Program-made: the position numbers and the translations under genes
Notes under the pieces: generated by a model
Told to the model about the DNA's origin: nothing
What the model saw: only the letters and a program-made list of their open reading frames with translations
Database searches by the model: none
Part shown: piece by piece, positions 22,367 through 57,159 of the stretch
Layout: every line of letters begins with the position of its first letter
Position numbering within the stretch: position 1 is the stretch's first letter
Assembly (NCBI RefSeq): GCF_041381155.1
Contig: NC_091143.1
Span: 27,467,331-27,531,330 of the forward strand
From: Argopecten irradians
Taxonomy: Eukaryota; Mollusca; Bivalvia; Pectinida; Pectinidae
Direction of reading: 5' to 3'
DNA: 64,000 nucleotides

Positions 22367-22469
22367 AGGAATATTTCCTGATTTCCTCCTGCAACTGGTA
22401 TAAATATGACAGAGAATCACCTTCAAATCACTCTCAATCTACTCGACACTGAATCCTACCGACGTCCAG
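22367..22469 (+). promoter_or_regulatory. Gene A core promoter and non-coding exon 1
   Basis: AGGAATATTTCCT (22367-22379) ends 20 nt before TATAAATAT (22399-22407). TTTCCTCCTG (22382-22391) lies between them, as in gene B. A start at the A of TCACTCTC (22430) is 31 nt from the TATA box. Exon 1 (22430-22469) ends GTCCAG/GTAAGC. Confidence 0.75.
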
Positions 22470-22791
22470 GTAAGCACATATATTTGTACTGTATTAAGTC
22501 CAGTTGCGATAACGTATCTCTGAATTAGAAACGAACGTTATGTCGATAATTCTTTCAATGTTTAAAGCGTTAATAAGACTTTAGTTTCGTATATATATTA
22601 CTGGTACAAATCATGGTTTCACTATTGAAATTTTATCAAACAAAACCTTTTTGCTTTTCATTGATTTACGAGAATGTTTAGTGGGGATTTTGTTTGGTCT
22701 CCGAAACATATTTGCTACAAGAAACCACTTGCATAAAATACGGAAACTTCCTTCAAAACTGACAATGCTTTCAATACTCTTTAATTACCCT

Positions 22792-23008
22792 TCAAAGATG
22801 CTCCATCGCCTGAAGAACAAATTTTTTTTCGGGACACTATTAATTATTTTGAATATTTGTATCATAAAGTAAAATAACAAGCTCAAACTTTTCAATGATG
22901 GTAATGATGTAAAGTAAGTAACTTTGTAACTGAAAAAAACTTCTAAATCGTCTCCTCCTGTTTTTGATAGAGAAAAATATCATTCGTCAGTGGTGTTAGC
23001 ATCTTTAT
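22792..23008. mobile_element. MITE family M1 copy in gene A intron 1
   Basis: It runs from TCAAAGATGCTCCATCGCC to CATTCGTCAGTGGTG and GCATCTTTATAA. The left third is deleted relative to the complete copies. Confidence 0.7.
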
Positions 23009-23788
23009 AAACTTTTCCTGTAATGTTTTTTCATAGTAATCCATTCTTCATGTTTTGTACATCCAGACCTACATAATGTTGTTTTAAAAGATAATAAACC
23101 GTACATCTAATATTGTATTAAAAGTCGTGATAATGCTATGGTATATTTACTAATTTGATGCGCGCCAATATGCCCGGCAGCCTCTATTATCGAGACCAAT
23201 TGCCTTTTTGTAGACGTGGTATCATTTTAGCAGATTGTGTCTACAATTGACTGATCTGATTGTGTGATCAACGCAAGTCCACAACAAAATAGTTTTCTTA
23301 GACAGAATAGATAGTAATTAAGAAATATATTTAGACGAAGAAACTTTTTCAACTTCTATTAACTTCATAAAACAAATTTGAATATAAAGATAATAATGAA
23401 ATTAAAAACCTGGAACCAGTTTCAAGGAAAGTTTTCAGTTTTTTTTTGTGACAGCCATCAGAGATTTTGTTACTAATTTTCTATCAATGCAGCTATGTTA
23501 TGGAACATTTTACAATATAGAATCTATTTGGGTATTCGATTAACTCTATTATTGTTTTTGTCTCTCTATGTAAAGTCCAATTATAAACACTTCTATTATA
23601 TGCCTAGAATGAAACATCGTACTTTGTTTTTGTTAAATTCAGAAGCAGTGGACTTGGCATACATGTCATATAAGCATTGTGATACATAATATTAGGTATT
23701 TACCTTAGGTATTATTAGAAACTATGAAAGAATTAAAAAAAGTATGTTATATTTTATCGTATGTTTCAGTCACTATCAATCCAACACC

Positions 23789-24560
23789 ATGCTGAAGGTT
23801 ATGTTTCTTTTGTCCTGTCTGGTGGCCAGCGGCCTCTGCCATTATTATGGTGAGTACTCAATAGTTATTTTAGGTCGATTCGTTCATTTGGCTTAACGCC
23901 ATATAAACAATCGCGTTAATTTAAGGACATCCATTCTCTTTGTGATGTGTTGAGTGTGGTGAATGCGTATCTCGTTTTAAAATCTTGTCAGTTTTATAGT
24001 GCTATCTTAGTGAAACATACTGTCAAAGACAATAAACAGCACACCTCATACGGTCACATTCCTACCCTCCTCTACCCTCCATAGTCATCTTTTGAATATC
24101 TATCACTTCTTTGTTATAGGTTTCGAACTTAATAAATACTACAAATGGACACCATCACAGAGTCGTATATAAGATTTCTTATACATTTTCATATTAATTT
24201 CCGGTTTTATCTCGTCTCTGTCGATTTTCCATGCAAAAATGTAACATTAACCACAAAATCTTAATCAGGTTTCCATGAAAAGTCGCCTTTCTTCCCGAGA
24301 AAACGTTTTTATAATCGCATTATATTGATGAGCGTTTCAAGATATACATTATGTTTGCAGGAAATAGCTATGGATATGGCTTGGGTTCTGGATTAGACTA
24401 TGGATACGGAAATAGCCTTGGACTCGGATATGGGTATGGGTCTGGATACGGATATGGACTCGGTCACGGATACGGACTTGGAAACGGATACAGACTCGGA
24501 GGTTACGGACGCGGATACGGCAGAAGGTGGAGGAGACGCTCAATATTCGGTGGATATTAG
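23789..24560 (+). CDS. Gene A: secreted Gly/Tyr-rich cationic peptide precursor (shematrin-like or glycine-rich defence peptide)
   Basis: Spliced coding sequence 23789-23849 joined to 24361-24560, giving 86 residues; both introns touching it use GT/AG. Exon 2 (23770-23849) encodes a signal peptide, MLKVMFLLSCLVASGLC, then HYY. Exon 3 completes a glycine codon and encodes repeats of GYGYG and GYGLG, ending YGRGYGRRWRRRSIFGGY: seven arginines near the C-terminus against one acidic residue. A stop TAG is followed 16 nt later by a third intron (donor 24577, acceptor 25116) and a non-coding last exon with AATAAA at 25188. Gly/Tyr repeats with a basic C-terminus recall shematrins of bivalve shell, and also YGGYG-type antimicrobial peptides; neither role can be proved here. 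It is the first of four paralogues and has no visible defect. Confidence 0.85.
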
Positions 24561-25187
24561 GACACTCTAAATTTAGGTAAATTGAAACCTTGGTTTCTTT
24601 ATTGTTTTGAGATGGTTACAGGATTGGCAGTATAATAATTAAATTTGTTGTGCTATGTAAATATAAGTTATGTCAGACAATGGATATATAATACCGTAGG
24701 GTTGTCCGTGAGTATTTGTAACTCAAAGACTAAATACATTTTAATAAAAAATAACACATATTTTTCATATCGACAAGAGAATATTACAATGAGGAATTAT
24801 TTGTATGTCACCCCACGAAATGGTTTACATACTGCGTTACTCATTACTGTGCCGTTCAATCCAGATTTCATATGGAGACGCGGACAGCTATGTGTTGCAC
24901 ACATTTCTACTTTCATTCTGGTAAACGCACTTGAACATAGCAAAAAGAAACCCTATGTTTTATAGCCTATTCAGGAATCTTTGCGTAAACATGGAAAATT
25001 GATTTGTAAGGTCTGGGCAAATTATATGCTTTTAGATGAGATCTATATTGTATGTTTTAGATGATACCAATGACACGTACATTTCATTAAATATGTTTGC
25101 TTTTATTTCTTTACAGATTCATCATGACTCATGCCGCCCTCCATGCTTTACCATTTAATTTATTACCAAAAATTTTTGTTGTCACGT

Positions 25188-25193
25188 AATAAA
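25188..25193 (+). terminator. Gene A poly(A) signal
   Basis: AATAAA lies in exon 4, which begins at 25117 with ATTCATCATG after TTTACAG. A GT-rich stretch follows at about 25215-25230, so cleavage is expected near 25205-25215. Confidence 0.75.
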
Positions 25194-25212
25194 TGTTCTT
25201 GTTGAATGGATT

Positions 25213-26340
25213 ACGTTGTGGATTTTGTGTCTTTATGAATACATTATGTAACTCAACAGAATATATTACAACAAAATGTAAGGATTATACTTATATCGCT
25301 ACTCATCCATAACTAGAATATTTAAACTTCTAAATAATTCATAGAAGTTTAACAGTTAGAATTTAGCATGTTTTTTCACCTGTATAGTAACGTAACGTTC
25401 ACACGACCATTCATTTAAAGTTATAATATGACCCACGCATTCATTAAAAACCTTTGCCCTGTAAATGTGTTGAAAATTTTAATTTTAATTAATATTCTGT
25501 AAATTGATTGTACACTGCATTATTCATGAATTGAATCTGATCAAAACGTATTTATGAATATTCGCATCTATGTTAGCATAAAATTAATACAAGTCGAAAA
25601 ATACCTAAGTATTGAAAACCGTTGATTGGCAGGTAGGTCAATTAGTCGTAACGTGTTCTTAATAGTATCTCACAAAAATGGAAAGTTCGCCAGAACCATT
25701 GATCGATTACATATTTTATAAAACGGTGAATTGTCTGGTCAAAATACATTTCTTGATTATTTGGGTGTGTAATATCCTAAACAGAAACTTCTAAGTGCGC
25801 CAATATACACAATGATTTATGACTTACACTAATTACAATAAGGATACAATCAACTTGCAAAATTAACTAAAAGTGAAAGTAATGAAGATTTAGCAGACGA
25901 GGAAGTGAGGAAATGATTTGAAAAACAAACATGGTCTGATTAAAACAAAAGAAAAATATATTTGGCAAATATTGTTTCCTGGCATATACAATCCGTATTG
26001 GTTACCTCCAAGGCAGATATTTACAACATATGATGGTTAAATGCTACTCCCTGGCGCACACCATCCACATTGCTTATTTTCTAGGCAACCAAGTACAACT
26101 TGTTATGGTTAAATGTACTCCCTGACATATACCATCAATTATAACTATTTAATTGGAGTTACACGGTTTATCATTTTTAGATTTCCTTTGCAATACTTGG
26201 CAATACCGTAGGCAACATGCTGTGGTCAATGAATGTCCCTCTATCTCATTATCCCTAATATATATTGAATGTGAAAACATTCTTAATTAAGACCGGTTAT
26301 TATATAGGATTTTGCTTTCCGTCTCACTATGCAAGAAGAC
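25213..26340. other. Gene-free stretch
   Basis: The only structure seen is a pair of similar segments near 26030-26140 (GGTTAAATGCTACTCCCTG and GGTTAAATGTACTCCCTG). No gene is supported. Confidence 0.5.
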
Positions 26341-26640
26341 ACTTCACCAATATACCACAGTGTACCAAAACACACACCACACCGCATACAATGGAAGCCA
26401 GTAGTATATTCGTGTTGTGTCTGGTAACCGATGACCCCTTGCTCTTTATATAGTGATATCCCACTGAAGCATGCCACTGAAGACACCAAACAAGCGAAAA
26501 CAACCGGGTCACATTAAACTTACAACGGGCAAAGCAGTTGTCCTTCTCTTTGTGCTGAGCGCTAAGCAGGAACAGAAACTACCACTTTTATAGACTATTG
26601 CGTGTCTCGGCCAGATGACACATTATGAAACCTGTCTGTA
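26340..26640 (-). mobile_element. Long-SINE copy, rearranged
   Basis: Forward-oriented tail pieces (26345-26398) abut a minus-oriented body (26400-26640) containing ATTCGTGTTGTGTCT, GCATGCCACTGAAGACACC, GGTCACATTA and AAACTACCACTTTTATAGAC. The tRNA-like head end is missing. Confidence 0.65.
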
Positions 26641-26689
26641 ATGGCTATCAGAATGTCTAAATCAAAACTTTTAATTTGTTCTTTGTTTG

Positions 26690-26842
26690 ATTAGATTAAC
26701 ATCCTATTAAAAGTCAGGGTCGGCCTCCAATGTATGTGGTGAATAAAGTGCGGGTGTGTTTTGAGAAACTGCGCTAAATTTTGTTGTACAATATCTTCTT
26801 GTATAGTGGACATGCCCTTTTTATAGTGCTATATCACTAAAG
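26690..26842 (-). mobile_element. Long-SINE, first part, split by the LINE
   Basis: Minus-oriented tail and body from TTTGTTTGATTAGATTAACA to GCTATATCACTAAAG. The same copy resumes at 32556 with TAAAGTATGCCGCC, exactly where the family consensus continues. Confidence 0.8.
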
Positions 26843-26959
26843 TTGCCATTTGTGATCTAGGCTAATTGTCATAGTCATCATTGAGAAAGCTGTATCTGTG
26901 GCAGTAGAGACTGCAATGAATGGTATTAAGACAGCATTATTTGAATCTTTTCATTCAAA

Positions 26960-27445
26960 GTTTGACAATCTAGAGGCCCGGATGGTTATCCTTGAAAATG
27001 AAAACAGAGATAAACGAAAAGGTTGAACAGTTTGGAACTTGAAAAACCCTGATCGCCGAGCTACAAAATCATATTCATTCCTGCAGCAATGTCAACTCTA
27101 ACTTTATACACGAGGAATTTGAAAACATGTACCATTACGCGCATCTTTTGGAGTCTGAAATAAACGACGTCGCGCAATACACCAGGAAAAACAATGTTAA
27201 TTTTTTTGGCATTCCTGAAAAGGAAGGTGAAAACTGTGTATCTGAAGTATCCAAAATCCTCGAAAACTCTCTGGATCTACGCGTATCGATATCGAGATTG
27301 CTCACCGACTTGGAAGAAAGTGACCATGGCACAGGCTGTAAAATCTCCTAATCCACGACCAATGATAGTGAGGCTCTTGAAAAGAAATGACAAGATGGCT
27401 ATTATGAAAGCCAGGTCAAAACTAAAGTATATACTAAGCTTTGTT
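26960..27445 (+). pseudogene. LINE ORF1 remnant
   Basis: A coiled-coil-like part is followed by TRKNNVNFFGIPEKEGENC, a core motif of ORF1 proteins of L1/CR1-like LINEs. In another frame PNPRPMIVRLLKRNDKMAIM resembles the following RNA-binding part. A frame break separates them at about 27340. Confidence 0.6.
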
Positions 27446-27668
27446 TGAAATTATTAACAACCATGTAAATAAATTGATGCACTATTGTTCATGTGCTGTG
27501 TATGGATGCAAGTGTTTTTATCGTCAATGGCAAAGCTAAATGTCAATTTCAAAGTAATTTTTGGGGATGTAAACAATTCTCAATCTCTTTATCTAAATCT
27601 ATATTTTTCATTGTTTATTGTTGTATCAAATTGTATCTCAAGCTGCATTGTTAGTGGTAAGCATGTAC
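27446..27668 (+). repeat. Internal LINE duplication 1, first copy
   Basis: It matches 28104-28329 in the same orientation. Shared runs include TGTGCTGTGTATGGAT-type sequence, GCTAAATGTCAATT and GCATTGTTAGTGGTAAGCAT. It lies between ORF1 and the endonuclease. Confidence 0.75.
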
Positions 27669-28103
27669 GCTTGAATTATGTATGAAGGCGTAACATTGGC
27701 TGCCTCATTAGTTTTATAATTTACAAAATAATAGAATATTTTTGACATTTTAATAGTCAATACACCACGGTGTCAACTATCTTAAACGTGTAGTAGTAAA
27801 TTCAGTTTTGTATGATACTTTACATTTTTGCTTCATATCATGCATGTATTCAAAAAATCTGACACAATATCATGTCGTATAATCTAAATCCCATCGCGCT
27901 AACATCCTTTGATAAATGTGAAGGCTCACTGTCTGTTTGTCTGAATTGCAAAGGTACAAGTACTAAGCAGTAACGGTAAGGTCCAGTAATGTATATTCGA
28001 AGGAAACTTAATATGCCTGTTTGTATATACTGTTCTATGTATCATAAATAGCTTACTTCTATCAATGTACTACATATGTTTGGCAACACTTATACTAAAC
28101 ACT

Positions 28104-28329
28104 GTTGAAATTATTAATAGCCATGTAAATATATTGATGTACTATTGTTCAAATGCTGTGTATGGATACAAGTGTCTTTGTCGTCAGTGTCTACGCTAAA
28201 TGTCAATTGTAAAGTTATTTTGGGGATGGATGCAAACAATTCCCAATCTCTGTATCTAAATCTACATTTTCCACTGTTTACTGTGGAATCAAATTGTATT
28301 TCAAACTGCATTGTTAGTGGTAAGCATGT
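28104..28329 (+). repeat. Internal LINE duplication 1, second copy
   Basis: The direct copy of 27446-27668, 658 bp downstream and diverged by scattered substitutions and small indels. It is therefore not recent. Confidence 0.75.
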
Positions 28330-28689
28330 TCCTTATGTACTGTCCTATCTCATAAACGCCTCCTTATCTTTTCCCTATTTCTTCCGCTCTATCACTCGAT
28401 CTCGAACTTTTCCCCTACTTCCTTCCTTACCCTTTTACTCTCCTATTTGTAATGATCTGTCTCGAGCAATACAGGTACACGATTGGCATTTGAAGCTATT
28501 ATTCTTTTATAACAAGCGTAAGAATAAATGTACGGAGCAAACCATTTTTAAATCCTCACATAGCTGTATTTACACTGCTTCTGTTACCTATTGTTTCTTC
28601 TTCTTCTCACTTGTTGGGACGTCTAGCCTAACCCCGGTCCTAATAAACTTGCTTGACTATTTATCTATCTGTCACATATATATACGAAG

Positions 28690-29307
28690 TATTTTGGCCA
28701 CCAGATGAAAATAAGAGTCGCTTTTATAAGTTATATGAAATAGAAAGCGTTTTCTGCAATCACTTTATGTATGACATTATAGCTATATCTGAGACATGGT
28801 TATGTCCAGAAATTGAAGATTCTATTCTTTAATTAGAAAATTTTAACCTTTACAGAGACGACAGAAATAGACATGGTGGAGGTGTAGCTATATATACCAG
28901 TAATACTATTGAATGCAAACGTCCCCTAGACTTAGAATCCCAAAAATATTAAAGTCTTCTACTAGAAATAACTCATCAGACAGGTAATATCTTATTTAGT
29001 ACAATCTATCGTCCTCCTAACCAGGATTCCCGTACTAAAACGACTTCTTATCTTATTTCTCACTGTCCAAATCATGCAGTCCAAAAACCCGTTAAATATC
29101 ATAATTACTGGTGATTTTAATGATAGATGTATTTCCTGGGATGACCAGCACGTGACTAGTGAACTCGGACGCCGTCTTTTTGATATTGCGATCCAGAATA
29201 ATTTGTCACAATTACTTAATAAAGCTACCCATTTTACCACAAATTCATCGCATATAATTGACTTCATTTTTGTTGATAAGTCCAAATGGTGGCAAACGTT
29301 GATATAA
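28690..29307 (+). pseudogene. LINE endonuclease domain remnant
   Basis: Motifs in order are YDIIAISETWL, RDDRNRHGGGVAIYTSNTIE, YRPPNQ, ITGDFNDRCISWDDQHV and HIIDFIFVDK, the usual series of LINE apurinic endonucleases. A frame break lies near 29060 and stops occur within the first half. Confidence 0.75.
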
Positions 29308-29716
29308 AATCACCCCTTTGTAATCTTGATCATAGTTCTTTTCCTGTGAACTGAAATATTATGTTCCAAAGCCTCAGTCATATCAGAGAACCATTTGGGA
29401 CTACAAAACTGCTGATATCGATGTTTTGAACAATGCATTTTACACCGCCCATGTCGATATATTCTTTGGTGTTTTTGATCATTTAGATGATATTATTGAA
29501 AATGTAAACAAGTTTATCTTAGATATGTGCAAAACATTCATAATAAATAAAGTAGTCAATATTCGTCCTCGCGACAAAGCGTGGTTAACAAACGAAGTAC
29601 GTTGAACCTTTAGGACTAGAGATAGATTTTCCAAATTATTTAAAAAAAAAAAAAAACAGGTAAAGACTTCGATAAGGTCAGGTTCCTGGTAGCACGTAGG
29701 AAGCAAATCGGGTAAA
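29239..29716 (+). repeat. Internal LINE duplication 2, first copy
   Basis: It covers the end of the endonuclease and the linker before the reverse transcriptase and matches 29819-30297. It is diverged by small indels, for example a longer A-run at 29641-29656. Confidence 0.8.
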
Positions 29717-29818
29717 ACGCGATGCACTTACACGTTGGCAAGAGTCCACCATTACTAAACTATCTAAAAGAAATACCAATCCTAAACTTTTCTGGTCAAT
29801 TTTAAATCTCTTATAGGC

Positions 29819-30297
29819 AAATTCATCACATATAATTGACCTCATTTTTGTTGATAAAGTCCAAATGGTGGCAAACGTTGATATAAAATCGCCACTTTCT
29901 AATCTTGCTCATAGTTCTTTTTGCCTGTAAACTGAAATATTATGTTCCAAAGCCTCAGTCATATCAGAGAAACATATGGGACTACAAAACTGCTGATATC
30001 GATGGTTTGAACAATGCATTTCACACCGCCTATGTCGATATATTCTTTGGTGTTTTTGATCTTTTAGATGATGTAATTGAAAATGTAAACAAGTTTATCT
30101 TAAATATGTGCAAAACATTTTTAATAAATAAAGTAGTCAACATTCGTCCTCGCGACAAAGCGTGGTTAACAAACGAAGAACGTTGAGCCTTTAGGACTAG
30201 AGATAGATTTTTCAAATTATTTAAAAAAACCAGGTAAAGACTTCGATAAGGTCGGGTTCCAGGTAGCACGTAGGGAAGCAAATCGGGTAAAACGTTA
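29819..30297 (+). repeat. Internal LINE duplication 2, second copy
   Basis: The direct copy of 29239-29716. After GGGTAAAACG it joins straight to reverse transcriptase sequence, so material that follows the first copy is missing at this junction. Confidence 0.8.
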
Positions 30298-35602: not shown

Positions 35603-35708
35603 GGATTTTTTTCCCTGATTTCCTCCTGGAACTGGTATAAATATGGAGAGGAAATATCCCAAAACCATTCTCAATCTACTCTCAACACAGAATCCTTCCG
35701 CCGTTTAG
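35603..35708 (+). promoter_or_regulatory. Gene B core promoter and non-coding exon 1
   Basis: TATAAATAT is at 35636-35644 and TTTCCTCCTG at 35619-35628, with the same 8-nt step as in gene A. The inferred start is the A of CCATTCTC at 35667, and exon 1 ends GTTTAG/GTAAGT at 35708. The position of the palindrome found in A, C and D holds only its right half here (TTTCCCT ending at 35616). Confidence 0.7.
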
Positions 35709-35985
35709 GTAAGTACAGGTACCTGTTGTTCAGTTATCACCAAGGCGATTTTGACAAACTGTTAGTCTCGCGTAGATCACTCTGTATTTTTCTCGTTTTG
35801 TTTCCATTTTAAAATCCATAATGCTTTGTTTCATCTTTTTACTTTGAAAGCTTTGTTTCATTTATGGTTGTAACTTTTTTGTAACTTTTGAGAAAAAAAT
35901 GGAAGTAGAATCTATGCATGAATTATTGAAAATGTTGTAAGCAATAAATTTGATTTGTTTGCAGTCACTACCAACAACCATCACC

Positions 35986-37013
35986 ATGCTGAAGGTATTG
36001 TTTGTCCTGTCCTGTCTCCTAGGTACCGGCCTCTGTACCTACTACTATGGTGAGTAGTCAATTTCAAATTTTATTAAAGTTATCAAACTTATTGTATACA
36101 ATGATTACAAATATTTCACTCAACACTAAAAAACAATTACATTCGAAAAGCACACACAATATCCTAATAACTAATCAGCGGTCATGCAAAATACATTCAT
36201 ATTCATTATGATATACAAGGTACGTCCTTGCATTTTATCCTGGAAACTTGCACAATCACAATCCGATCATATAATTTAATTTATAAGTTGTTCTCAAATA
36301 ATATTCGTTTACTATATAAAGGCTACACAACCTACATGTCAGAGTATACAATACTAGAGTAACTACATTGAAATCATGATTGGAGGCGGGATCGTATTTT
36401 CAGGGTCCCACATATAAATTTTGTTAATTTACGTAGATCACTCAGTCAAGAGATTATAAATATCAAATATCCACCCTTTTGTTCCAACAAAGTTACATAT
36501 AACACATCCAGGGTAGATAGGTTTATTTCGTTCAATTGAACTATATTGTATGTAAATTTATTTTTATGTGCAATCATTTTGCGCTTTTCGTGTGACGCTT
36601 TGAATTACAAATTGCAGTAAAATTATAATCTCCGTTACTAAGTTTCAACAACATATACCGTAGAACTTGAAAATCACAAAATCATTTGGAAATAATTGAT
36701 TTTAAAGATTCCTATGTTATGAAAGGTATATAAAAAATAAATAGGATAATTAAAAAAAAGTAGTCTTACATATAAATTACTTCCATCAGGAAATAACTAT
36801 GGCGGCTATGGATACGGAAATAACCTTGGATACGGATACGGAATTGGTAATGGATACGGATACGGAGGAAATGGATACGGATACGGAATTAGTAATGGAT
36901 ATGGATACGGAAATGGATACGGATACGGATCTGGGTACGGTTCAGGATACGGAATAGGTCGTGGATACGGATACGGGAATCACGGAGGCATGTGGAAAAG
37001 ACGTGGATATTAG
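35986..37013 (+). CDS. Gene B: secreted Gly/Tyr-rich peptide precursor with GYGYG repeats
   Basis: Spliced coding sequence 35986-36049 joined to 36790-37013, giving 95 residues, the longest and most regular member. Exon 2 encodes the signal peptide MLKVLFVLSCLLGTGLC and TYYY. Exon 3 is an almost unbroken run of GYGYG separated by Asn, Ser or Ile residues (GNGYGYGGNGYGYGISNGYG), ending HGGMWKRRGY. Apart from one internal arginine all charge is in that tail, and there are no acidic residues in the mature part. The stop TAG lies 16 nt before intron 3 (donor 37030, acceptor 37449); the last exon carries AATAAA at 37514. Low complexity and Gly/Tyr content fit a self-assembling matrix protein such as a shematrin; a defence role is an alternative. 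Confidence 0.85.
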
Positions 37014-37513
37014 AACAACATAACTATAGGTAAGTGATAGGAATTACGTTGTTAATGCCAGTGTCAGTTCTAAGTTGAGGATTGACAAACCAAACGCTAT
37101 TACAAATAAGGAAAAACATCGAGTTAAAAGTAGATATACGTTACGATTATTTACGACCTGTTAATCGTCATAGTGATGAGCTTTGAAATAGAGAAGGATA
37201 TATTTTTGACCATATTTCAAAAAACTAATTCTTTTAAAATATAATATAAATGTACTTTGTAAGTGGTGAACAAAATGAATATCTATCAGCAAGGTTTTGA
37301 CAACAATTCTATAAAACTTAAGATATATATTTTATAAGGAGCAAATATGATAAAAGAATGTCATTGCTGGATCATCATAATCATAGTTTTTATACCATCA
37401 ATTATATAGTTTTTCTACTGAAATAATATTATTTTTCTTTTCTTTTCAGATTCATCATCCCCTTCACGCTTTACCAATTTAATTATTGCCAAAATGATTT
37501 TTTTACCTCATGA

Positions 37514-37519
37514 AATAAA
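37514..37519 (+). terminator. Gene B poly(A) signal
   Basis: AATAAA in exon 4, which begins at 37450 with ATTCATCATC, like exon 4 of gene A. Cleavage is expected near 37535. Confidence 0.75.
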
Positions 37520-39180: not shown

Positions 39181-39200
39181 GACTAATAACAGAAGATTGG

Positions 39201-45050: not shown

Positions 45051-45304
45051 ACTATGTCCTTGTTTTTTTTTATCTAAAAGTGATTCTATACTGTGATTTT
45101 ACGAAAGTACTGAAATACAACATTTTCAAAATCTGCATAACGGGCGTTGGCACACACAAATGAACTACAGCCTCGGACATTGACCACTGATGTTTACAAT
45201 AATAATACTCACTGGACACTGGTCATTGCTGGAAGTCACGATCGTCACTGGTCATTTGCTGTCTTAACGGCGACATTTTGTCATTTTGGGAATTAAATTT
45301 TGAC

Positions 45305-45407
45305 AGGAATTTCCTGATAGTCTGGTATTACTAGTATAAATATAGAGGAAAATTATCAACAAACCATTCTCGATCTCCACTCGACACATACTCGTACCGA
45401 AGTCTAG
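45305..45407 (+). promoter_or_regulatory. Gene C core promoter and non-coding exon 1
   Basis: AGGAATTTCCT (45305-45315) ends 20 nt before TATAAATAT (45335-45343). The inferred start is the A of CCATTCTC at 45366, and exon 1 ends GTCTAG/GTAAGT at 45407. TACTAGTATAAATAT is shared exactly with gene D. Confidence 0.75.
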
Positions 45408-45810
45408 GTAAGTTTACTAGTTATTTGAGTAGCATGTTGTTCCTTTTGGTTATATTCAGTTCAGAAGATTAGTAATGTATTGCTCAATTAAGAATTTGTT
45501 CAATAAATTATGTCAGTCGTTGGCAATTTCATACTGACATCATGAAAATATGAAATAAAATGTTACGTAACGTTGTGTTTTTGCTTTTGTCTCTATAGCA
45601 ACATTATAATATTATTGTATTATGTATTTCATATTATAGAAGCAATATTTGATTGGTGGCAACAAGTTTTAAAGAAACTGAACTCCATTCTTCTTGTTTA
45701 TTTCTGTACCTGTTGAATATGTTTCATAACATCAGTCATTTTAGCAGTGTTAATTTCAGTATTTGATTTGAATAACTATTTTATATTTCAGTTCCTATCC
45801 ACTCGTCACC

Positions 45811-46625
45811 ATGATGAAGGTAGTGTTCCTTCTCTCCTGCCTCGTGGCTGGTGCTTTATGTCATTATTATGGTGAGTACTCAAGAATAGCTATTGACTTG
45901 TTACGCTATTGGTTATATTAACAACCATGGTCATTCAAGGACGGCTTCTGCTATATGCAGTGCGTTGCGTCTGTGCAAGACTTTGATAGTTTGGGAGGCT
46001 GCAGTAGGTTTTTGAATCTACACAAAACGTGTTATCATGGCTTTTTCACTTAATTGGGGAGGACCCCTTTTACCTTATTTTTGGAAAGAAATTGGCAAAT
46101 TTGGAAGGAAATTTCCAGAAGTAAACTGTGTTTTTTTGGGAATTTGACAAAATTTGAAATAATTTTCATTTGGAATGGGGCCTGTTATCGGCCCCAAAAA
46201 GCACTGGTTTTATTATCACACGTAATCAAAAGGTATTATTGACGGATTCATTATATTCTCATCCAATTCCGACTTTCCACTATAAAAAGTTATATTTGTG
46301 CAGTATTAAAAGTAAAAATCAACTTAAACAAGTTTTATACACAAATGAGTAATGTTGTCTCTCCATGAACAGATATTATTAATCATTTGTACAGCTAAAC
46401 AAAGATACACATATATTTATAGAAACATCCTTATTTGCAGAAAATGTAATTCCGTATAGTACTGGTGTCGGTTCAGTAATGGATTACGGGTATGGAAGAG
46501 ACCTGGGATTTTCTGATTATGATGGGTATGGAATTGGACGCGTAGGCTATGGACTCGGAAGCTTCGGACGTGGAGGATACGGCAGCAGATTTATAAGGAG
46601 GAACCCTATTATTGGCGGTTATTGA
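45811..46625 (+). CDS. Gene C: secreted Gly/Tyr-rich peptide precursor, mixed charge
   Basis: Spliced coding sequence 45811-45871 joined to 46441-46625, giving 81 residues. Exon 2 reads MMKVVFLLSCLVAGALC, then HYY. The codon split by the intron gives Glu where A and B have Gly. The mature part is less repetitive than A or B: GSVMDYGYGRDLGFSDYDGY, then GIGRVGYGLGSFGRGGYG and the tail RFIRRNPIIGGY. It has about six arginines against five acidic residues. The stop TGA is 17 nt before intron 3 (donor 46643, acceptor 46893), and AATAAA is at 46962. The signal and leader are nearly those of gene D, so C and D are sister copies. Role as for A: extracellular matrix or defence, undecided. Confidence 0.85.
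45905..46012 (-). mobile_element. Long-SINE fragment in gene C intron 2
   Basis: ATTAACAACCATGGTCATTC, AAGGACGGCTTCTGC and TTGGGAGGCTGCAGTAGG follow the family order; both ends are lost. Confidence 0.65.
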
Positions 46626-46961
46626 GGACATAAACATTCCAGGTATATCATATCGTTTATTATTTATTGCTTGATCTTACCTGTTATAAGTTTTCTATTT
46701 CAAACTTCTAGTATTTATTTGTTTATCACTATTTAAAGCAATTAAAAGACAAAATAAACACAATTTAGAATAATTCAAGTAGACATCCAATCTCGTCATA
46801 GAGAAATACTATGATAATATTTATCTTGTTAACGTCCATAAAATCAGGTTTTAAACAAGATATTATTAATGCTTTTTTTCTCGTTCCTTGCAGATTCATC
46901 TCATCACAACTAATTTATTTTTCATATATATTGCTCTGGCCTTTTTGTGTGTTCTTAATTG

Positions 46962-46967
46962 AATAAA
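46962..46967 (+). terminator. Gene C poly(A) signal
   Basis: AATAAA in exon 4, which begins at 46894 with ATTCATCTCATC. Cleavage is expected near 46985. Confidence 0.75.
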
Positions 46968-47139: not shown

Positions 47140-47919
47140 AACAAGAGGCCCAGAGGGCCTGTATCGCTCACCTGTAAGTAATGTCCTAAATACAGGTTCA
47201 TTGTTTCTTTTCTGAAGGAATTCGAATATTTACCTCTAATTCCCCTATTGGGCCCCACCCATCCTGCGCTCCTGGGTGAGAGTCCAAAATTTATACAAGT
47301 TCTGTTCCCCTTCCCCCAAAGATGTTTGTGGCCAAATTTGGTTACAATTCATGCAGAACTCTAGGACAAGTAGCGATTTATAGAATTTACCTCTATTTCC
47401 TCTATTGGGCCCCGCCCCTCCTGCACCCGGGGGATCAGAGCCAAAATATATACAAGTTCTGTTCCCATTCCCCCATGGATGTTTGTGGCCAAATTTGGTT
47501 ACAATCTATGCAGAACTCTAGGACAAGTAACGATTTATAGGATTTACCTCTATTTCCTCTATTGGGCCCCGCTCATCCCACCCCCCGGGGGTCAGAGCCA
47601 AAATCTATACAAGTTCTGTTCCTCTTTCCCCATGGATGTTTGTGGCCAAATATAGTTACAATCCATGTAGAACTTTAGGACAAGTAGCGATTTATAGGAT
47701 TTACCTCTATTTCCTCTATCGGGCCCCGCCCCTCCTGCCCCACGGGGGGGTCAGAGCCAAAATTTATACAAGTTCTGTTCCCCTTCCCCCAAGGATGTTT
47801 TGTGGCCCAAATTTGGTTACAATCCATGGAGAACCCCCATGACAAGTAGCGATTTAAAGGAAATGGTTTGACGGACGACGGACGTCGCGCTATGACATAA
47901 GGTTCGGGCCAGGTGAGCT
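47140..47919 (-). mobile_element. Pearl-like element, inverted
   Basis: It starts with the right-end near-palindrome (AACAAGAGGCCCAGAGGG), then the unique flank, about four and a half units of 157 bp (marker ATGCAGAACTCTAGG at 47351 and 47508, decayed at 47665 and 47826), and the hairpin end GGTTCGGGCCAGGTGAGCT, whose partner arm is degraded. Confidence 0.85.
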
Positions 47920-48790: not shown

Positions 48791-49189
48791 TTATAACTGC
48801 ATGCTATCCTATATAACTTTATAGTTTAGTTGATCTTCACCTCGGTGGAAAACGTGAAACACCAGGGTCATGGAATTAATTTCTGGACACTTCCATCTAT
48901 GAAGAGTATTTTATTTTCCTGTATATGAAACTCGAGAAGGTGATTTTGAAGTAAACGTGAATGTGTGATCCCTTTTCGCCCCGCTCATCGAGAAAGGACC
49001 ACCTACCAAGAAAAATAAAAAATATTTCGACTTTGGCCATGGAGGGGGTTTCTATATTTTTTGTAGAAGTCGAAAAAATATAAACTGTTTATGAATGACA
49101 ATGACTGAAAAAAGTTAATTGCAATACGCATGCGAGTTAATGTTGAAATTAGCGAAAGTCACTATTTTACCATTGTTGGACGTCTTACA
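48791..49189. other. Gene-free stretch
   Basis: A short inverted pair (ATATTTCGACTT and AAGTCGAAAAAATAT, about 49020-49085) is the only structure. Confidence 0.5.
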
Positions 49190-49312
49190 ATTCCAGTTAG
49201 AATGTATTTAAGGAGCTCCAAATCCTCAATGACCACGCAAATATCGCGCGTGACTACAGTTATTTGCGTGGTCACTTGAGGACTGGAGCTCCTAAAACAT
49301 TCTAACTGGAAT
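49190..49312. mobile_element. Foldback element with ~52-bp arms
   Basis: ATTCCAGTTAGAATG, AGGAGCTCC, CCTCA and TGACCACGCAAATA on the left are met in reverse complement on the right. The loop is about 20 bp and centred on ATCGCGCGTGAC. It is non-coding. Confidence 0.75.
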
Positions 49313-49557
49313 CGGATTAAGATAGCACAGTACAATACATGTACCTTAATAAGGAAATTTCTTACCGTATATTTACAGTATAAGTGTATTTATAGGGTGA
49401 TTATATTACTGACACGTTGTATATCTACATGTAAACATCGTAGCTTAAATTGGATGTCTTCGACGACGAGCATATGGAAATAATTATCATTACAAAATTT
49501 GACATATCTTTATCTTATAACAAGAAATCAAATACCCGTAAAATCTAGCTGCTGGTT

Positions 49558-49880
49558 TTATTGGTAATCTTTTGGCGTCGGACTGCAAAACGTAGCACAG
49601 ATTTCAACAATTGTTGAGATATACGCTTTTCGATGGCGCCACAGCATTCCGATAACACGGTAGATTTTCATACTGCGTATGACATGTTCTACTCTAACCC
49701 TGTATTTACTCAAAATATTATTGAAACATTGGCATTTTCGACGCTGTCTAACATTTCTGTTCAACATCTGCTGTTGTCTGTATGATGTGAATAAATGGGT
49801 ATCTGTTTGGAAAATTTTTGTCTCCGAGTATTACACAATCATTCGGAAAGTCCAGCTCTATGTTTGCACCTATATTGGGT
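49558..49880 (-). pseudogene. PIF/Harbinger (DDE_Tnp_4-type) transposase C-terminal remnant
   Basis: On the minus strand the frame reads FNNILSKYRVRVEHVIRSMK then IYRVIGMLWRHRKAYISTIV and EICATF, the end of Harbinger transposases with the last catalytic glutamate in RVRVEH. Upstream, in another frame, ELDFPNDCVILGDKNFPNRY looks like the preceding stretch, so there is a frame break near 49800. The rest is absent. It is not the missing part of the 13540 element as far as can be told. Confidence 0.6.
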
Positions 49881-49989
49881 AAAAAATTCAAAATTTGAGC
49901 GTCATTTTGGTGACCTGGAAACCCACTTCTTACAAAACCGAAGAATACAATTATTATCTATGATAACTATCATGTTGATACAATGACAG

Positions 49990-51480
49990 TGCCTGTGACC
50001 ACTATAGTATACAAGGGGCCAATCACAATTGTGAATTATATGGTCCCCCACCCTCCAGGGGGCTGTGGGAGGGGCCAAAAGGGGTAAAATTGAATAAAAT
50101 TTCACAAAATCTTCTTCTCTACTCACAGATGTTGGTAGAATCAAATACTCTTCATAGATAGAAAGGTCTTAAGGTCCCTTTACAAAAATTGTGAATTATA
50201 TGACACCCTGGGGTGTCTAATTTCCCCCCTGGGGAGGGGTTAAGTTTATTATAGTTTATATGTGGGAAAAAACACATTTTTGCGACAATATATTTGGTCA
50301 TTTGTAATAGGAAATGAGTCAAATGTTGGTCAGAATAATCAGTATGTGATGGCCATTTAATCTTTTTCAAACAAAATTTTCTATGACTGAACCCCGTCAG
50401 GGGCCTTCGGGCGGGCGTCAAAAGGGGTCAAATTGGCTAAAACTTCAAAAATCTTTTTATTCCGAAACAAGTCACAATTTGTTAGAATTAATTAGCCCGA
50501 GATAGCATCTTTTAAATATCATTATCCACATTGGTCCACTGGCCGACCCCCTTGGGGCAGAGGGGCGGAGCCAAAAAGGTCATAATAGGCTACTTAAACT
50601 TCAAAAATCTTCTTTTAAAATTCTGGAAATGGAGTAATCAAATACACTTTTATAGATGAAAAGGTCTTAAAGTTTGTTTATAGAAATTTGTAAATTATAT
50701 GACCCTGGGGTCTCTCCTGTTTCCGCTTGGGGAGGTGGGTCAACGTTTACTATAGTTTATATATGAAAAAGGACATTAATGAGCATTTTTTGCTCATTTT
50801 TTCGTGGGAAATGATGTCAAACTTGGAGTAGGTATTATTAGCCCTGAGATAGTCATTTTTATATCATATCCAACTTCTAAGTCTTATGCAGCCGACTGCT
50901 CCCCTGGGGGCAGAGGGGCGGCGGGCTAAAAAATGGTGCAAGAATAGGCTAAAACACATACAAAAAACTTCTAAAAATTCTGGATATATAGTTGCATCAA
51001 ATAACTATAGATGGGAAATGTGATTAGGTTGTTTAATAAAAAATTGGTGATTTTTTATGACCTTGGAGTTCTCATGTTACCACCAATCCCTTGGGAGAGG
51101 GGTCCGAGTTTCCTCTTAGTTTATTTAGGAAAAACTCTTTATATGTGAACAGTTTATTTGCCCCAATTTTTCGTTAGGAAATTAGTCAAACATATACGTT
51201 AAGACTGCATTATGCCGAAGATTTAGCAAAACTTCAAACACAGCCATATCCTGTCCTCCGATGGATCCCTGGGGGTACCAGAGGAGCAGGATTCACATAA
51301 CAGGTTCCAAAACGATGATTAAATATTATCCAAAAACTATTACCTCTTAAGTGTCACAGGTCCTGACATGGAAGACCAAATACTCTCAATAGTCTAAAGC
51401 ATGTTACAAGATCTTATAAATCAACCTGTTGTGACCCAACTATCCCAAAGGACTCCCAGCATATTAGTTGTATCTTATGT
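49990..51480. repeat. Degenerate long tandem repeat
   Basis: Three to four decayed units share AATTATATGACCCTGGGG-type, CTTGGGGAGG-type, TTTACTATAGTTTATAT-type and CCCTGGGGGCAGAGGGGCGG-type blocks in the same order, at uneven steps of about 360-500 bp. No gene is present. Confidence 0.6.
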
Positions 51481-53724
51481 CCATTAATTGTTGATTCATT
51501 ACTTATGTTTAGACCATTAATCTATTATTCTTAACTCAGGTGACATCGTGTTTAAGGCCGCACTTAGGAGCCTACTTGTTTACATTCTATGTATCTGATT
51601 TATTCCATACGACGACTGCTCATTGGGACAACCATCAAATAATATAAGAGACATCACTATATAATAGAATGATTCGATCGCTTAGCCAATATTCATACAT
51701 AACAGTTATAGGATTCGACACAGCTCGGATATGCCGTTTTCACTGATCATAACAGCGATCCCTGGACATACATTTGACTGATGTGGTTGGAGATAGGGGG
51801 GTGTGGGTTGTGTGGGAGGTACCCATTCTCGAGCATGCTTATTTTGGCTTAGAAATCGAGTGTTGACCTTAAAAAGACACTAGAGCGGTACTTTTACGCA
51901 TTGTAATTTACTTAAAATATTGGATTGCTTTTTGTACTTAGTACCCGATAGTGGTCCTTTTTCTACTCTTGATAAAACGAACAACTGTAAATTGCGGGCG
52001 ATTTTGTTTGAAACAAAAATCTCACTTTAATCACATTAAATCGTTCTTAGATAATAGCTTAGGCACATTTAATCCAATTTCTTTGGAAACGCACAGATTA
52101 TTATCAAGACTGAAGTATCTTGTCTACGATTATGACACAGGGGCTTGGCCCCCGGGACACAGGGGCTAGGGTCCCTGGCAGGGGGGGGTGGGGGGGTGGG
52201 TACATGTTAGAAGTCTGGTGACTTAGAATATTTAGAATATTATGTGTATTTCAATGATATTTAGTTAACTTCTCTGAATTCGGCGTGATACTCTGTGATT
52301 AGGAGTTATTCAAGCCTAATAATCTCTTTCCCTGTATTTATCTATTTATCATAATTACTATTCTATTTATCTGTATATGTAAGTCAAATATTTTATATAT
52401 AAATTCATCAAATGGATATAGTGTTGTTTGGTTCTGTAAAATAAACAGTATAGTCTTCTTTTTCAAAATTAAATGTTTAAGACTGGTCAGGAATAGGTAA
52501 TAGATTCAGGCTGTAGGACGGTGGTTTTTATTTTGATACTCTGGGTTCCTCCAAGTATTGACACATCCTTAAATGGCCATGAACCCTAATCGATCTATAT
52601 AAAACACTTTCTGTTTTTGTGTTCATTAATCAGCTACTTTAACTCTTTCATTTTAGTCATTTATTTATTAATTTATACATTTCTTCTGTTTCAGCCGAGC
52701 TTTGACCATGGTACCTTTTGGGCCGACCAGTTTAACAGCTTTTTCCTGACATGAAGACAGCGCCAAGGGGAGTTAACTCATTTCATGAAAATACTAGACA
52801 GAGTTACCTTTCCATAATTGACCTGAGTATTTAATTGTGAGTATAATTTGTTTTTTTTCTCTATACATTTCTCTCATATACCTCTTTGGTTCAATTATCA
52901 GTGTTATTAATTTCTTCGAGATGGATAGTCGAGTGAAATTCGAGTTATCTCCCTTCCATTGTCTGTACATTTGTAGGTCTCTGGTAAACGGGTTTTTTTA
53001 GCAGTGAGATGGTGCAAATTTAGAGGTGACTTGTGTAATTCTTTCATTTCCAGATCTTGTAACTGACTAGTATACATCAATATGCGAGTGAAGGATAAGT
53101 TTAATTCTATTTTTCAAAATCATTTTCTTTCTAATAGCCACGATTCTTTAGTTCTGTCCAGTTTTTCGGGTTCAAATGTTGCTCTAGATTTGATTTTATC
53201 TGTCCTTGGAATCCTTCAGAGGTTAATAATTCCCTTTTTTACATCAATTGGTATACATTTGTAATTTTAGAATCATCTGATTCAGAAAATCAGGGCAAAT
53301 TTGAAATTTTTGGGGCTATTTTGTATCCATATTTCATTAGCTGCACCGTAATTTCTCTGTGTTATATCAGATATATTATGACATAATATGTTATAATCAT
53401 TTCTTTATGATATTCTATTGTTTACTAAGTTATATATCTATAGTATTGAGCCAGTTCTGGAACTTTGATTTGCTTAATTGTTCAGTTCTGGATATTTTTT
53501 GCTAGAAATTCCAAAAATGGGGGGTGGGGGTAAAGAATATGAGTTATCTCCCCCTGACCTCCAAGTTTAATTCAATTGGTCATATTTCCCTGTAGTACAC
53601 TAACTATACTATAGTTATAAGTAATAGTCAAAAGTCTAGGTTCAAATTTCATTGAAATATTTAAACTTTTATTTCAAAACTGTTTCAATTCTCATAATTT
53701 TTCTTACAGGAATCTTCATCGTCG
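51481..53724. other. Gene-free stretch
   Basis: It includes a G-rich tract (52177-52200) and direct CCCCTAGC/ACACAGGGGCT bits nearby, plus two short frames (51951-52169, 53082-53264) without recognisable features. Confidence 0.5.
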
Positions 53725-54085
53725 AAGTGTTGGTTTGTTGATTACTTATTATAATGCCCTATTAACAGAAACAGTCATTTTACGAACGGTCTTCCCTACA
53801 TGCGTTATGTTGCTTCTATTTGGGTGGCTGCGATATGATCGAGTGTCTTTTGTGACGATGGAAATGTTTTAGTCAGTGCAACTCACTAAAGAATGTTGCC
53901 ATGTTGAAAGTTATGATTTACCAGCGCGGATATAAAATAGCACAGTTCGATGGTTCCATATAAGTACATTTACAGTAAAGGGGTGTGCAACAGTTCCCCG
54001 AACGTTCCTCAACAGTCAACTTAAGGCAGCAAAACGTGAGGTGGTGTAAAGGAAGATGTTAGGAAGAAAAAAATATAAGACTCGA
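53725..54085 (-). mobile_element. Long-SINE copy, diverged
   Basis: TTGTTGATTACTTATTATAA, GCCCTATTAACAGAAACAGT, GGTCTTCCCTACATGCG and later AAAACGTGAGGTGGTGTAAA, GTTAGGAAGAA follow the family order. Confidence 0.6.
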
Positions 54086-54144
54086 AAAGTCGCCTTTTAT
54101 TATCATGCATCCTTACATAGCAAACTTAATTGAATTTGTAGCGT

Positions 54145-54290
54145 TTTGTTTGATGGGATTTACGTTCTATTAACAGAAAGAGTCACATAAGGACGGTCTC
54201 CCGTGTATGAAGTGAGGGTGTGTGTTTCGTGAGACTCGTATATTTCTGTTGTGTCTTCTTGTATAGTGGAACTCTAAACTTTGATCGTAG
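54145..54290 (-). mobile_element. Long-SINE tail fragment
   Basis: TACGTTCTATTAACAGAAAG, AAGGACGGTCTCCCGTG and GTTGTGTCTTCTTGTATAG match the family. Confidence 0.7.
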
Positions 54291-54475
54291 TGAAATGGCC
54301 TCTTCCAATAATTCAGTGCGAGTTGCATGTTTATTCAGTTTTTTTAGTCAAAATATAGTCCTAATATAATATCGGATGAAGACTGAAAATCTCCGAACAA
54401 AACTTGACAACGGACGGATAACGCCATTTATTATACGTCTAACAATAATAAAACATTATTTCTTTGAAAAAGCAT

Positions 54476-54481
54476 TTTATT
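54476..54481 (-). terminator. Gene D poly(A) signal
   Basis: AATAAA on the minus strand, in exon 4, which begins at 54542 with ATTCGTCACATC after a TTACAG acceptor. Cleavage is expected near 54458. Confidence 0.7.
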
Positions 54482-55112
54482 GAATAAAAAAAACAATCAA
54501 GATGCAATAAATAAAATGATCAACGATGCTGATGTGACGAATCTGTAATGAAAAGAAAAATATTGTAAAATATTTTACATCATGCAAGTTTACATTGTGC
54601 ATTCATATAACTATATTCACTTTTTCACTGCAGTCTCACTATGTAACCTTACCAAGCGCAGTTGGCAGTCATATAGACAATGAACTTCAAGCTCTTATAA
54701 GACGTCATTATCATTGTGACGTCACAATTGTCGTGCCAGCGATCACGGAAGACGGCTGTTTCAAATGGCTGTTCCATCCATGACGATAAGGAATGATTTA
54801 TTCATTATAGATACCAAATTCCTTGGGATTTCATCATACAATTGTAACTAAATGTAAATATAAGCTTGAAGCGCTAGCGCGCTTCATGTTGAATTTGCCT
54901 CTGTCCAGTTTGCATTTATATTGGCTATGAATGTCAACTGAAAGACGTTCAATGCTTAAGGAACTGTTGTTTTAGGTTTGTTTTAACAAAGATAGATTTA
55001 TCTGTGTAATGAATTAAGTTAAATAAGAATTTGCCGAGATTTCGAAATTATGATGCGAAATGAAAATGAATTGCGGGGAAAATGCTGTGACCTTACTGGA
55101 AACTATATTTTT

Positions 55113-55538
55113 TCAATATCCGCCGGTGACTGGGCGTTGCCTCATCCAGTTGTTTCCATATCCACTTCCAAAGCTCCCGAAGCCTCCTTGTCCGCGGCCG
55201 TAGAAATTGTTTCCATAGCCAGGTTCATATGCATCGTAACCAGAAAAGCCTACGCCACCTCCGAACCCACTTTCGAAATTTGAACCGAAACCAGTAGGAC
55301 CGTAATAATTGTTGTCTGGAAAGCAATGAGTAAAAGTTATTATTGAAATGTAGAAATGATTTGACTTCAGTGTGGACACTTAATAGTGTCCCTTTCTTTT
55401 GTGCATCTATTCTGGTTTTCTTTTATTACAGTCAATCTTATCTCAGTAACACGTGCTTGTATTTTCATATTACTTACCATAATAATGACATAGAGCACCG
55501 GCCACAAGGCATGAGAAGAGGAACATTACTTTCATCAT
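55113..55538 (-). CDS. Gene D: secreted Gly/Tyr/Phe-rich peptide precursor
   Basis: Spliced coding sequence 55538-55478 joined to 55315-55113 on the minus strand, giving 87 residues. Exon 2 reads MMKVMFLFSCLVAGALC, then HYY, and the split codon gives Asp. The mature part has phenylalanine as well as tyrosine: NNYYGPTGFGSNFESGFGGG, then EPGYGNNFYGRGQGGFG and the tail NNWMRQRPVTGGY, with three arginines and four acidic residues. Intron 2 is only 162 bp; intron 1 (55558-57056) is 1.5 kb and holds a SINE and an M1 MITE. The stop TGA is 16 nt before intron 3 (donor at 55096). D faces gene C in convergent orientation, and its leader and promoter are closest to C, so an inverted duplication is likely. 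No defect is seen. Confidence 0.85.
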
Positions 55539-55644
55539 GGTTTCGGGTTTTTTGGGGCTGAAACAGACCAAATATACACTGAAATATATTTCAAAAATAA
55601 AGCAGCTTGTAAATATTCGATGATTAAACTAGGTAAATATTTAC

Positions 55645-56020
55645 AGTTATGGGAGTTTTGGGAGATTGCGGTATGTTCGTGTTGTGTCTTCTTGAATAGT
55701 GTAACTGTTGCCTTTTTTATAGTGCTATATCACTTAAGCATACCGCCGAAGACACCAAGTAAAACACCCCAACTGGTCACATTATACTGACAACGGGCGA
55801 ACCAGTCCCATCCCCTGTTTGCTGAGCGCTAAGCAAGAGCAGAAACTACCACTTTTATATACTTTGGTGTATCTCGGCCAGGTTCGGACGTTCAACTGAG
55901 ACCGTGCCAAGGGAGAAATTAGGAAACATAAAGTCATTTACGAAGAAGAGAAAAGATAAGATCCTAAATTTAGTCGCCTTTTACAGTTCTTCATAGGAAC
56001 CCGGCGTACTTATACCTCTC
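55645..56020 (-). mobile_element. Long-SINE copy in gene D intron 1
   Basis: From GGGAGATTGCGGTATGTTCG through GCATACCGCCGAAGACACC, GGTCACATTATACTGACAAC, GAGCGCTAAGCAAGAGCA to GATCCTAAATTTAGTCGCC near its head end. The tail is missing. Relative to gene D it lies in the sense orientation. Confidence 0.75.
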
Positions 56021-56044
56021 GACCATTTAAATATATCACCATTG

Positions 56045-56408
56045 CAGCTACTATCATTTGAACATGTAAATATAACTGATGTATATTCTTGTAATATAAT
56101 CTTAATAAACTTTGCTTTTGGTACATGCAATCAGTACTTTATTCCATATAGGGCATTGTGCCATGAATTTCTCTTCGGCATGCAAATAATTATTTTTAAT
56201 ATTTATATCCTGAAGTAGGTGAAATACGAAGTTCGAAAATCATTTTCGCAATATACCACATATAAATAATTCTCGTTACGAAGTTCGAACTTAGCAATGA
56301 CGGTAATGGTGTAAAGTAAGTAGTTTTTGTATCTGAAGAAAAATACTCATTCGCCTGCTGCTGTTTTTTGATAGGAAAAAATACCATTCGGCAGCGGTGG
56401 AACATTTT
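56045..56408. mobile_element. MITE family M1 copy in gene D intron 1
   Basis: TCATTTGAACATGTAAATAT, CAATCAGTACTTTATTCCAT, TAATTATTTTTAATATTT and CATTCGGCAGCGGTGGAACA are collinear with the complete copies. An extra inverted block (ACGAAGTTCGAA, twice) is inserted in the middle. Confidence 0.7.
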
Positions 56409-57056
56409 TTGATATTGCTTAAGTAAGAAGACATATGAAACCATTCAGAGTCTTCTAAATGAACATCCCGAATGAAATTGTTTAGGTGGGAAACAACATA
56501 AACCTAAGCTTGACAACATGCTGGGGTGTCCTAGAAAACGGTATGTTGCACAAATTTACACAATGATTTAGAACATCTAAAGCTAACACTCGAGCATGTT
56601 ATGGCGATTAATTATGCTGTAAGAATTGGTAAAATTGTTTAAATTTATTGAACTTTTATTGGGTTATTAAAACGAAAGTTATATCTATTAAAATATTTTT
56701 GGCCCTAAATGGCCTTAGTTGTCGATGGGCCGTAAAACTCAAACAAACAAACAATTTTGTGTTTAGATAATTAAGACAAAATGTGTAGAGCAAACTTTAC
56801 GATTAACCATTTGAAATGTATTTTCTTTATCAAATACACAACTGTTACAATACTGTTTGAAATAGCATGCCTGGTAAGTATATACAAGCTGAGACTATTG
56901 ATGTCAATTTAAGGTAGAATTTTGTAGTATTTTCAACATTGATATTTGTACTTCAATACTGTATTCTTATGATTATGAACCAGGATTCTGATTTATGTTT
57001 TTTATGGCAATGATATTGTACAGTGTATCAACAACATATAGAAATCAGAAGCTTAC

Positions 57057-57159
57057 CTTTGCGATGATACGATTCGTTTTCGAGTGAAGATTGAGAATGA
57101 TTCCTTGGATATGCTTTGCAATATTTATACTAGTAACACATGAAAATAAGGAAATTCCT
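57057..57159 (-). promoter_or_regulatory. Gene D core promoter and non-coding exon 1
   Basis: On the minus strand AGGAATTTCCT (57159-57149) ends 20 nt before TATAAATAT (57129-57121). The inferred start is the A of TCATTCTC at 57098, and exon 1 ends GCAAAG/GTAAGC at 57057. Confidence 0.75.

Follow-up and report, generated by a model that had tools for sequence, protein, structure and literature searches.

Eight genes of the bay scallop (Argopecten irradians) for small secreted proteins rich in glycine and tyrosine, a probable family of structural matrix proteins

Fast-evolving, lineage-specific proteins of low complexity build the shells, ligaments and periostraca of molluscs. Among the closest described systems are the shematrins, whose C-termini read RKKKY, RRKKY or RRRKY (PMC11358866), and the KRMP, lysine-rich matrix proteins of Pinctada, which are secreted precursors of about 100 residues (101 in KRMP-3) with basic and glycine/tyrosine (Gly/Tyr)-rich regions (PMC4498902). 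For KRMP-3 of the pearl oyster, the authors showed that the Gly/Tyr region binds chitin and suggested that it is quinone-tanned (PMC4498902). The mussel myticalins are antimicrobial; their genes have a phase-1 intron and three exons, of which exon 1 is untranslated and exon 2 contains the mature peptide, and the precursors have a dibasic site and an acidic extension at the C-terminus (PMC5577615). The locus analysed here is a stretch of 64,000 nucleotides of the Argopecten irradians genome (NCBI RefSeq assembly GCF_041381155.1, contig NC_091143.1, positions 27,467,331 to 27,531,330), called the window below, in which four small spliced genes (A to D) had been proposed from the sequence in an earlier note. 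The analysis demonstrates that Argopecten irradians has a real family of small secreted Gly/Tyr-rich genes, eight of which were found (A to H), none of them broken.

Genes A to D were rebuilt by script from the raw sequence of the window, and the rebuild bore out the four-exon plan that the earlier note had described for them, at the places collected in Table 1. A TATA box (TATAAATAT, located 71–73 nt upstream of the first donor, present in seven of the eight genes and as a variant in G) is followed by a non-coding exon 1, a signal-peptide exon 2, a phase-1 intron, a mature-protein exon 3 and a non-coding exon 4, within which each gene has the poly(A) signal AATAAA. All introns of the four genes run from GT to AG and all frames are open. 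The 5′ end of exon 1 was inferred by placing the transcription start at TATA+31 nt, and the exon-1 length of 40–42 nt rests on that assumption. The precursors have 86, 95, 81 and 87 residues in A, B, C and D, respectively, in agreement with the range of 81–95 residues given before.

The extent of the family was established by searching the whole genome of 846 Mb with a 35-base signal-exon pattern written from A to D, allowing up to 3 mismatches. The pattern occurs at eight places, A to D by construction and four others, and its reversed control at none. A search with the signal consensus recovered the same eight genes; precursors D and E, used as queries, each returned seven of them, while precursor H and the tail consensus each returned six, the missed ones being A or B. 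These counts are lower bounds. The only other match in these searches was a weak one on contig C1395 (E 0.0065, query H), which contains four internal stop codons and was not counted. Genes E and F are located about 12.9–18.9 kb past the right edge of the window, and G and H on the same contig at a distance of about 16 Mb. The cluster, which had been taken as four-membered, thus comprises at least six genes, with two more elsewhere on the contig, and the evidence supports reading these small, spliced, secretory Gly/Tyr-rich genes as a family of paralogues. Modelled in the same way as A to D, except that exon 4 was chosen by eye, genes E to H encode precursors of 88, 95, 86 and 83 residues, with a phase-1 intron, GT...AG splice sites and no broken copy. 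The proposed start of exon 4 with ATTC is valid for A to D and does not extend to the exons picked by eye, which begin with ATTG in E, GTTC in F, ATCA in G and AATC in H. In a tree of the eight proteins, one of the five inner branches is supported, the one that separates A and B from the rest. Genes G and H form a divergent pair at 43.291–43.296 Mb of contig C10, about 40–45 kb from the end of this 43.34 Mb contig, a position that is perhaps subtelomeric.

The first 17 residues of the eight precursors are signal-like in all cases (judged from sequence, with no signal-peptide predictor) and were subtracted to obtain the mature proteins, whose charge was computed with Arg, Lys, Asp and Glu as the sole charged residues. 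Mature proteins of 64–78 residues result, devoid of cysteine in all eight and of Lys in seven (B has one), with 23–42% Gly, 9–27% Tyr, 0–14% Phe and between 0 and 3 Met per protein. Every member displays the same two-part charge layout: the Gly/Tyr/Phe body has a net charge between 0 and −4, and the 20-residue Arg-rich tail that follows it, for which SFGRGYGxRFMRRSPVxGGY is typical, has one between +2 and +6. The whole mature charge ranges from −1 to +6 and is only −1 to +1 in C, D, E and F. The GGY C-terminus attributed to all copies except B was confirmed and is found in seven of the eight family members, whereas the Gly/Tyr repeats also attributed to them are strong, in the form GYGYG, in A and B only; the other six genes mix Phe and Tyr. 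AlphaFold2, applied to mature E with an eight-row alignment, gave a mean pLDDT (predicted local distance difference test) of 45 and no residue at or above 70, and the mature protein is accordingly low-scoring in a manner consistent with its being predicted as disordered. A Pfam scan of the eight proteins, with E values up to 1, listed Keratin_2_head (two members, best E 0.0087), TrAA12 (one member, E 0.014) and KRTAP (one member, E 0.79), and the first family member, the one compared with the curated cut-offs, scores below them for all three; the best E in an NCBIfam scan of the eight was 0.12 and a sequence profile search of the PDB gave 0 matches at E 10. None of these results is a match of weight, and they do not appear to explain the proteins.

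The distribution of identity along the eight genes provides evidence of constraint. Between the TATA box and the end of exon 1, the genes share a mean pairwise identity of 0.66. Upstream of the TATA box, 60-base blocks give 0.57 for each of the starts −140 and −80, 0.49 for the start −200 and 0.40 for −260, and the four blocks that span −500 to −260 give 0.38–0.43. Intron identity is 0.43–0.44 for intron 1 (first 190 nt) and 0.37 for intron 2 (first 130 nt). Because 0.66 contrasts with 0.37–0.44, exons and proximal promoter have been held while the compared parts of the introns drift, and the signal, the frame and the splice sites are conserved among the eight paralogues. The ratio of non-synonymous to synonymous differences (pN/pS), pooled over paralogue pairs, is lowest in the signal (0.23) and higher in the tail (0.39) and the body (0.50), figures that are rough because synonymous divergence (dS) is near saturation and the pairs are non-independent. 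Values below 1 in all three regions, together with the lack of any broken copy, are more in keeping with genes for a material than with an evolutionary arms race.

Within the proximal promoter, a block, TTGACARGAATTTCCTGAT, starts 35–36 nt upstream of the TATA box. It is exact in C, E and G and has one mismatch in F, two in D, four in A, six in H and eight in B. Two variants inside the block, GGAATTTCC (genes C and D) and AGAATTTCC (genes E and G), resemble an NF-kB-type site. The strict kB site GGGRNNYYCC was found in none of the eight genes, on either strand, within 300 nt before the TATA box. The block may be a binding site for a regulator of tissue-specific or immune expression.

Comparison with the described families shows partial likeness to each of them. 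Like the shematrins, the proteins are secreted, Gly-rich and Tyr-containing, with a basic C-terminal end; however, none of the eight carries any of the three shematrin endings, and shematrin identity was rejected on this C-terminal test. The earlier opinion that the family resembles shematrins or defence peptides but matches neither closely is therefore upheld as far as the poor shematrin fit is concerned, while the defence role is less likely than a matrix one. With KRMP the family shares a small secreted precursor that pairs a basic region with a Gly/Tyr-rich one, but in KRMP the basic region is lysine-rich and comes first and the Gly/Tyr region last, whereas the present proteins have the two regions the other way round and a basic region built on arginine, with 0 or 1 Lys. 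KRMP identity was rejected because no lysine-rich region follows the signal peptide. The reverse-primer sequence of P. fucata KRMP-3, complemented and without its adapter, occurs at one place in the genome, with 2 mismatches, and its flanks, in three frames of that strand, are not Gly/Tyr- or Lys-rich, so the occurrence was judged to be chance and a Pinctada origin of the DNA was rejected. The myticalins, for their part, resemble the family in being clustered paralogues with a non-coding exon 1, a conserved signal, a phase-1 intron and no cysteine. They differ from it in that the mature part of the family lies in exon 3, its C-terminal end is basic in all members and a dibasic site is present in five of the eight; this difference in exon content led to the rejection of myticalin identity.

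Abductin, the known elastomer of the scallop hinge, is encoded in the same genome and is likewise Gly-rich. The one abductin gene modelled (TATAAATA, a non-coding exon 1, a signal exon, a phase-1 intron and one low-complexity exon) follows the same plan, including the phase-1 intron after the signal; the non-coding exon 4 of the family comes in addition to the part modelled in abductin. In contrast to the family, mature abductin has 63% Gly, 11% Met and 1% Tyr, with GGFGGMGGGX repeats, and the absence of such Met-rich repeats from the family excluded abductin identity. In the genome searches, an abductin-repeat search missed the family, and queries D, E and H missed the abductin loci. Three abductin genes are found within about 31 kb on contig C9, at about 40,835,500, 40,849,100 and 40,866,300. 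The product of one of them is 136 residues long, carries Tyr at positions 4 and 20 and Cys at 6 and 10, and has the GGFGGMGGGX repeat, features that match those described for bay-scallop abductin (PMC13052691); the other two differ from it in their mature exons. The assignment of the genome to the bay scallop also agrees with two exons of a striated-muscle-type myosin heavy chain at C5:45.94 Mb. Their 107 and 101 residues, trimmed to the myosin part, match the PDB chains 1dfk, 1dfl, 1b7t, 1kk7 and 1qvi, which are of bay scallop, at all 208 positions and score lower against 2ec6 and 2os8, the latter from another scallop. Set apart from shematrin, KRMP, abductin and myticalin by described features, the genes constitute a new family among the small low-complexity secreted proteins of molluscs. 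No evident description of it was found in the literature searched, among the matches listed and as judged from titles and abstract openings.

We consider it rather probable that the eight genes encode short, disordered, secreted structural matrix proteins, in which the body binds chitin and cross-links and the cationic tail acts as an anchor. The 17-residue signal would export the protein from what is probably an epithelial cell. The Gly/Tyr/Phe body would most likely self-associate, bind chitin and become cross-linked through its tyrosines, by dityrosine or by dihydroxyphenylalanine (DOPA)-quinone tanning; chitin binding and tyrosine cross-linking are proposed because of the analogy with KRMP-3. 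The Arg tail would dock to an acidic matrix, to a mineral surface or to the acidic bodies of the family itself, and the proteins would end up in the periostracum, the shell matrix, the hinge ligament or the byssus. In favour of such a role are the cysteine-free composition rich in Gly, Tyr and Phe, the two-part charge layout of all eight members, the low pLDDT of mature E, the pN/pS values below 1 and the intactness of every copy. Several points weigh against a structural role. Gly/Tyr composition alone leaves function unfixed, and the gene plan does not discriminate, because it is partly common to the antimicrobial myticalins; for the same reason, the matching plan of abductin fits a matrix gene without proving it. 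Synonymous sites are near saturation (dS 1.0–1.5), and the copies vary in their properties, with isoelectric points from 5.5 to 9.7. In addition, the tail is better conserved than the body, which could signify a specific bioactive end.

Alternatively, the genes could encode glycine-rich antimicrobial or mucosal defence peptides whose cationic C-terminal tail acts on microbes, an explanation to which we grant a minor share of the probability. The positive net charge of the tail in all eight members and a promoter block that is kB-like in C, D, E and G are in line with it, and mussel antimicrobial families are likewise clustered paralogues with a conserved signal peptide (PMC5577615, PMC12294457). 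However, the near neutrality of half of the whole mature proteins, the absence of the strict kB site from the eight upstream regions and the poor state of the block in B and H speak against it, as does the lack of excess amino-acid change in any of the three regions of eight intact copies. Moreover, tail release by dibasic cleavage is not conserved, because dibasic sites are present in only five of the eight proteins, and the myticalin authors stated in 2025 that no glycine-rich antimicrobial peptide is known in any bivalve (PMC12294457). An improbable elaboration makes the genes the first bivalve glycine-rich defence family, secreted at epithelia and induced via the kB-like block, with a disordered Gly/Tyr body that would coat surfaces or form condensates, an Arg-rich ...GGY tail that would attack microbes and perhaps also a function as structural barrier. 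If the family proved antimicrobial, it would close a gap that has been pointed out in print for bivalves (PMC12294457).

The basic residues of the tail also evoke precursors of the neuropeptide kind, in which cleavage at those residues would release a short ...GGY peptide. Gene A has RRR followed by SIFGGY, and C, E and F have RR followed by a seven-residue peptide ending in GGY, but D, G and H are without a dibasic site, B has just two residues beyond its basic run, and the C-termini end in Tyr, with the amidation signal absent there; we regard such precursors as very improbable, and proprotein cleavage as a family-wide mechanism was set aside on the same count of dibasic sites. Adhesives and threads are also made from Gly/Tyr-rich secreted proteins, and the sequence has nothing that excludes the foot. 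A lineage-specific family of byssal or adhesive-gland proteins, and not of shell or mantle proteins, is on that account given a small chance, although the scallop byssus literature has no evident description of the family among the matches listed. Finally, low-complexity frames arise easily, and the genes could be chance open frames or decaying copies without product. This is scarcely credible for eight intact copies whose splice sites and frame are conserved despite intron divergence, and a six-frame scan of the window yields 4 open stretches of at least 50 codons in which Gly or Tyr makes up 15 or more of 30 residues, a kind of frame that occurs in none of 40 random windows generated by a first-order Markov model.

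The structural matrix interpretation concerns a compact eight-gene family in a farmed species with a previously described abductin. Gene finders can miss such genes because their coding part is split and repetitive. The conserved signal and tail are markers for tracing the family in other scallops, and the two-part design of body and tail is open to recombinant testing.

Table 1. Positions in the window of the features of genes A to D and of their promoter blocks
Feature	Position	Strand	Remark
Gene A, TATA box	22399..22407	+	script rebuild
Gene A, exon 1, non-coding	22430..22469	+	5′ end inferred as TATA+31
Gene A, exon 2	23770..23849	+	5′ leader, signal peptide, first mature residues; ATG 23789
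Gene A, exon 3	24361..24576	+	mature protein, stop, start of 3′ untranslated region
Gene A, exon 4, non-coding	25117..25193	+	to AATAAA at 25188
Gene B, TATA box	35636..35644	+	script rebuild
Gene B, exon 1, non-coding	35667..35708	+	5′ end inferred
Gene B, exon 2	35965..36049	+	signal peptide; ATG 35986
Gene B, exon 3	36790..37029	+	mature protein, ends KRRGY (sole copy without GGY)
Gene B, exon 4	37450..37519	+	to AATAAA at 37514
Gene C, promoter block TTGACAGGAATTTCCTGAT	45300..45318	+	35 nt before TATA; also in E, F and G, exactly or nearly so
Gene C, TATA box	45335..45343	+	script rebuild
Gene C, exon 1, non-coding	45366..45407	+	5′ end inferred
Gene C, exon 2	45792..45871	+	signal peptide; ATG 45811
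Gene C, exon 3	46441..46642	+	mature protein
Gene C, exon 4	46894..46967	+	to AATAAA at 46962
Gene D, exon 4	54476..54542	-	to AATAAA at 54481
Gene D, exon 3	55097..55315	-	mature protein
Gene D, exon 2	55478..55557	-	signal peptide; ATG 55538
Gene D, exon 1, non-coding	57057..57098	-	5′ end inferred
Gene D, TATA box	57121..57129	-	script rebuild
Gene D, version of promoter block	57146..57164	-	2 mismatches

Elsewhere in the window, a probable Mab-21/cGAS-like nucleotidyltransferase gene occupies positions 7181–9094 (+). Its frame 7434–7811 matches PF03281 above the cut-off, its frame 8276–9094 gives weak TPR-like matches below the cut-off, and the gene may be spliced or frameshifted. Proteins of the Mab-21/cGAS-like type include innate immune receptors. 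Pieces of non-LTR (long terminal repeat) retrotransposons, with reverse transcriptase (PF00078) and endonuclease (PF14529) matches, are present at 62336–63700 (+) and 28972–29307 (+) and are ordinary repeats. GC-rich tandem blocks extend over 47215–47754, with a 157-base unit, and over 57940–59140, the second having been noted by eye.

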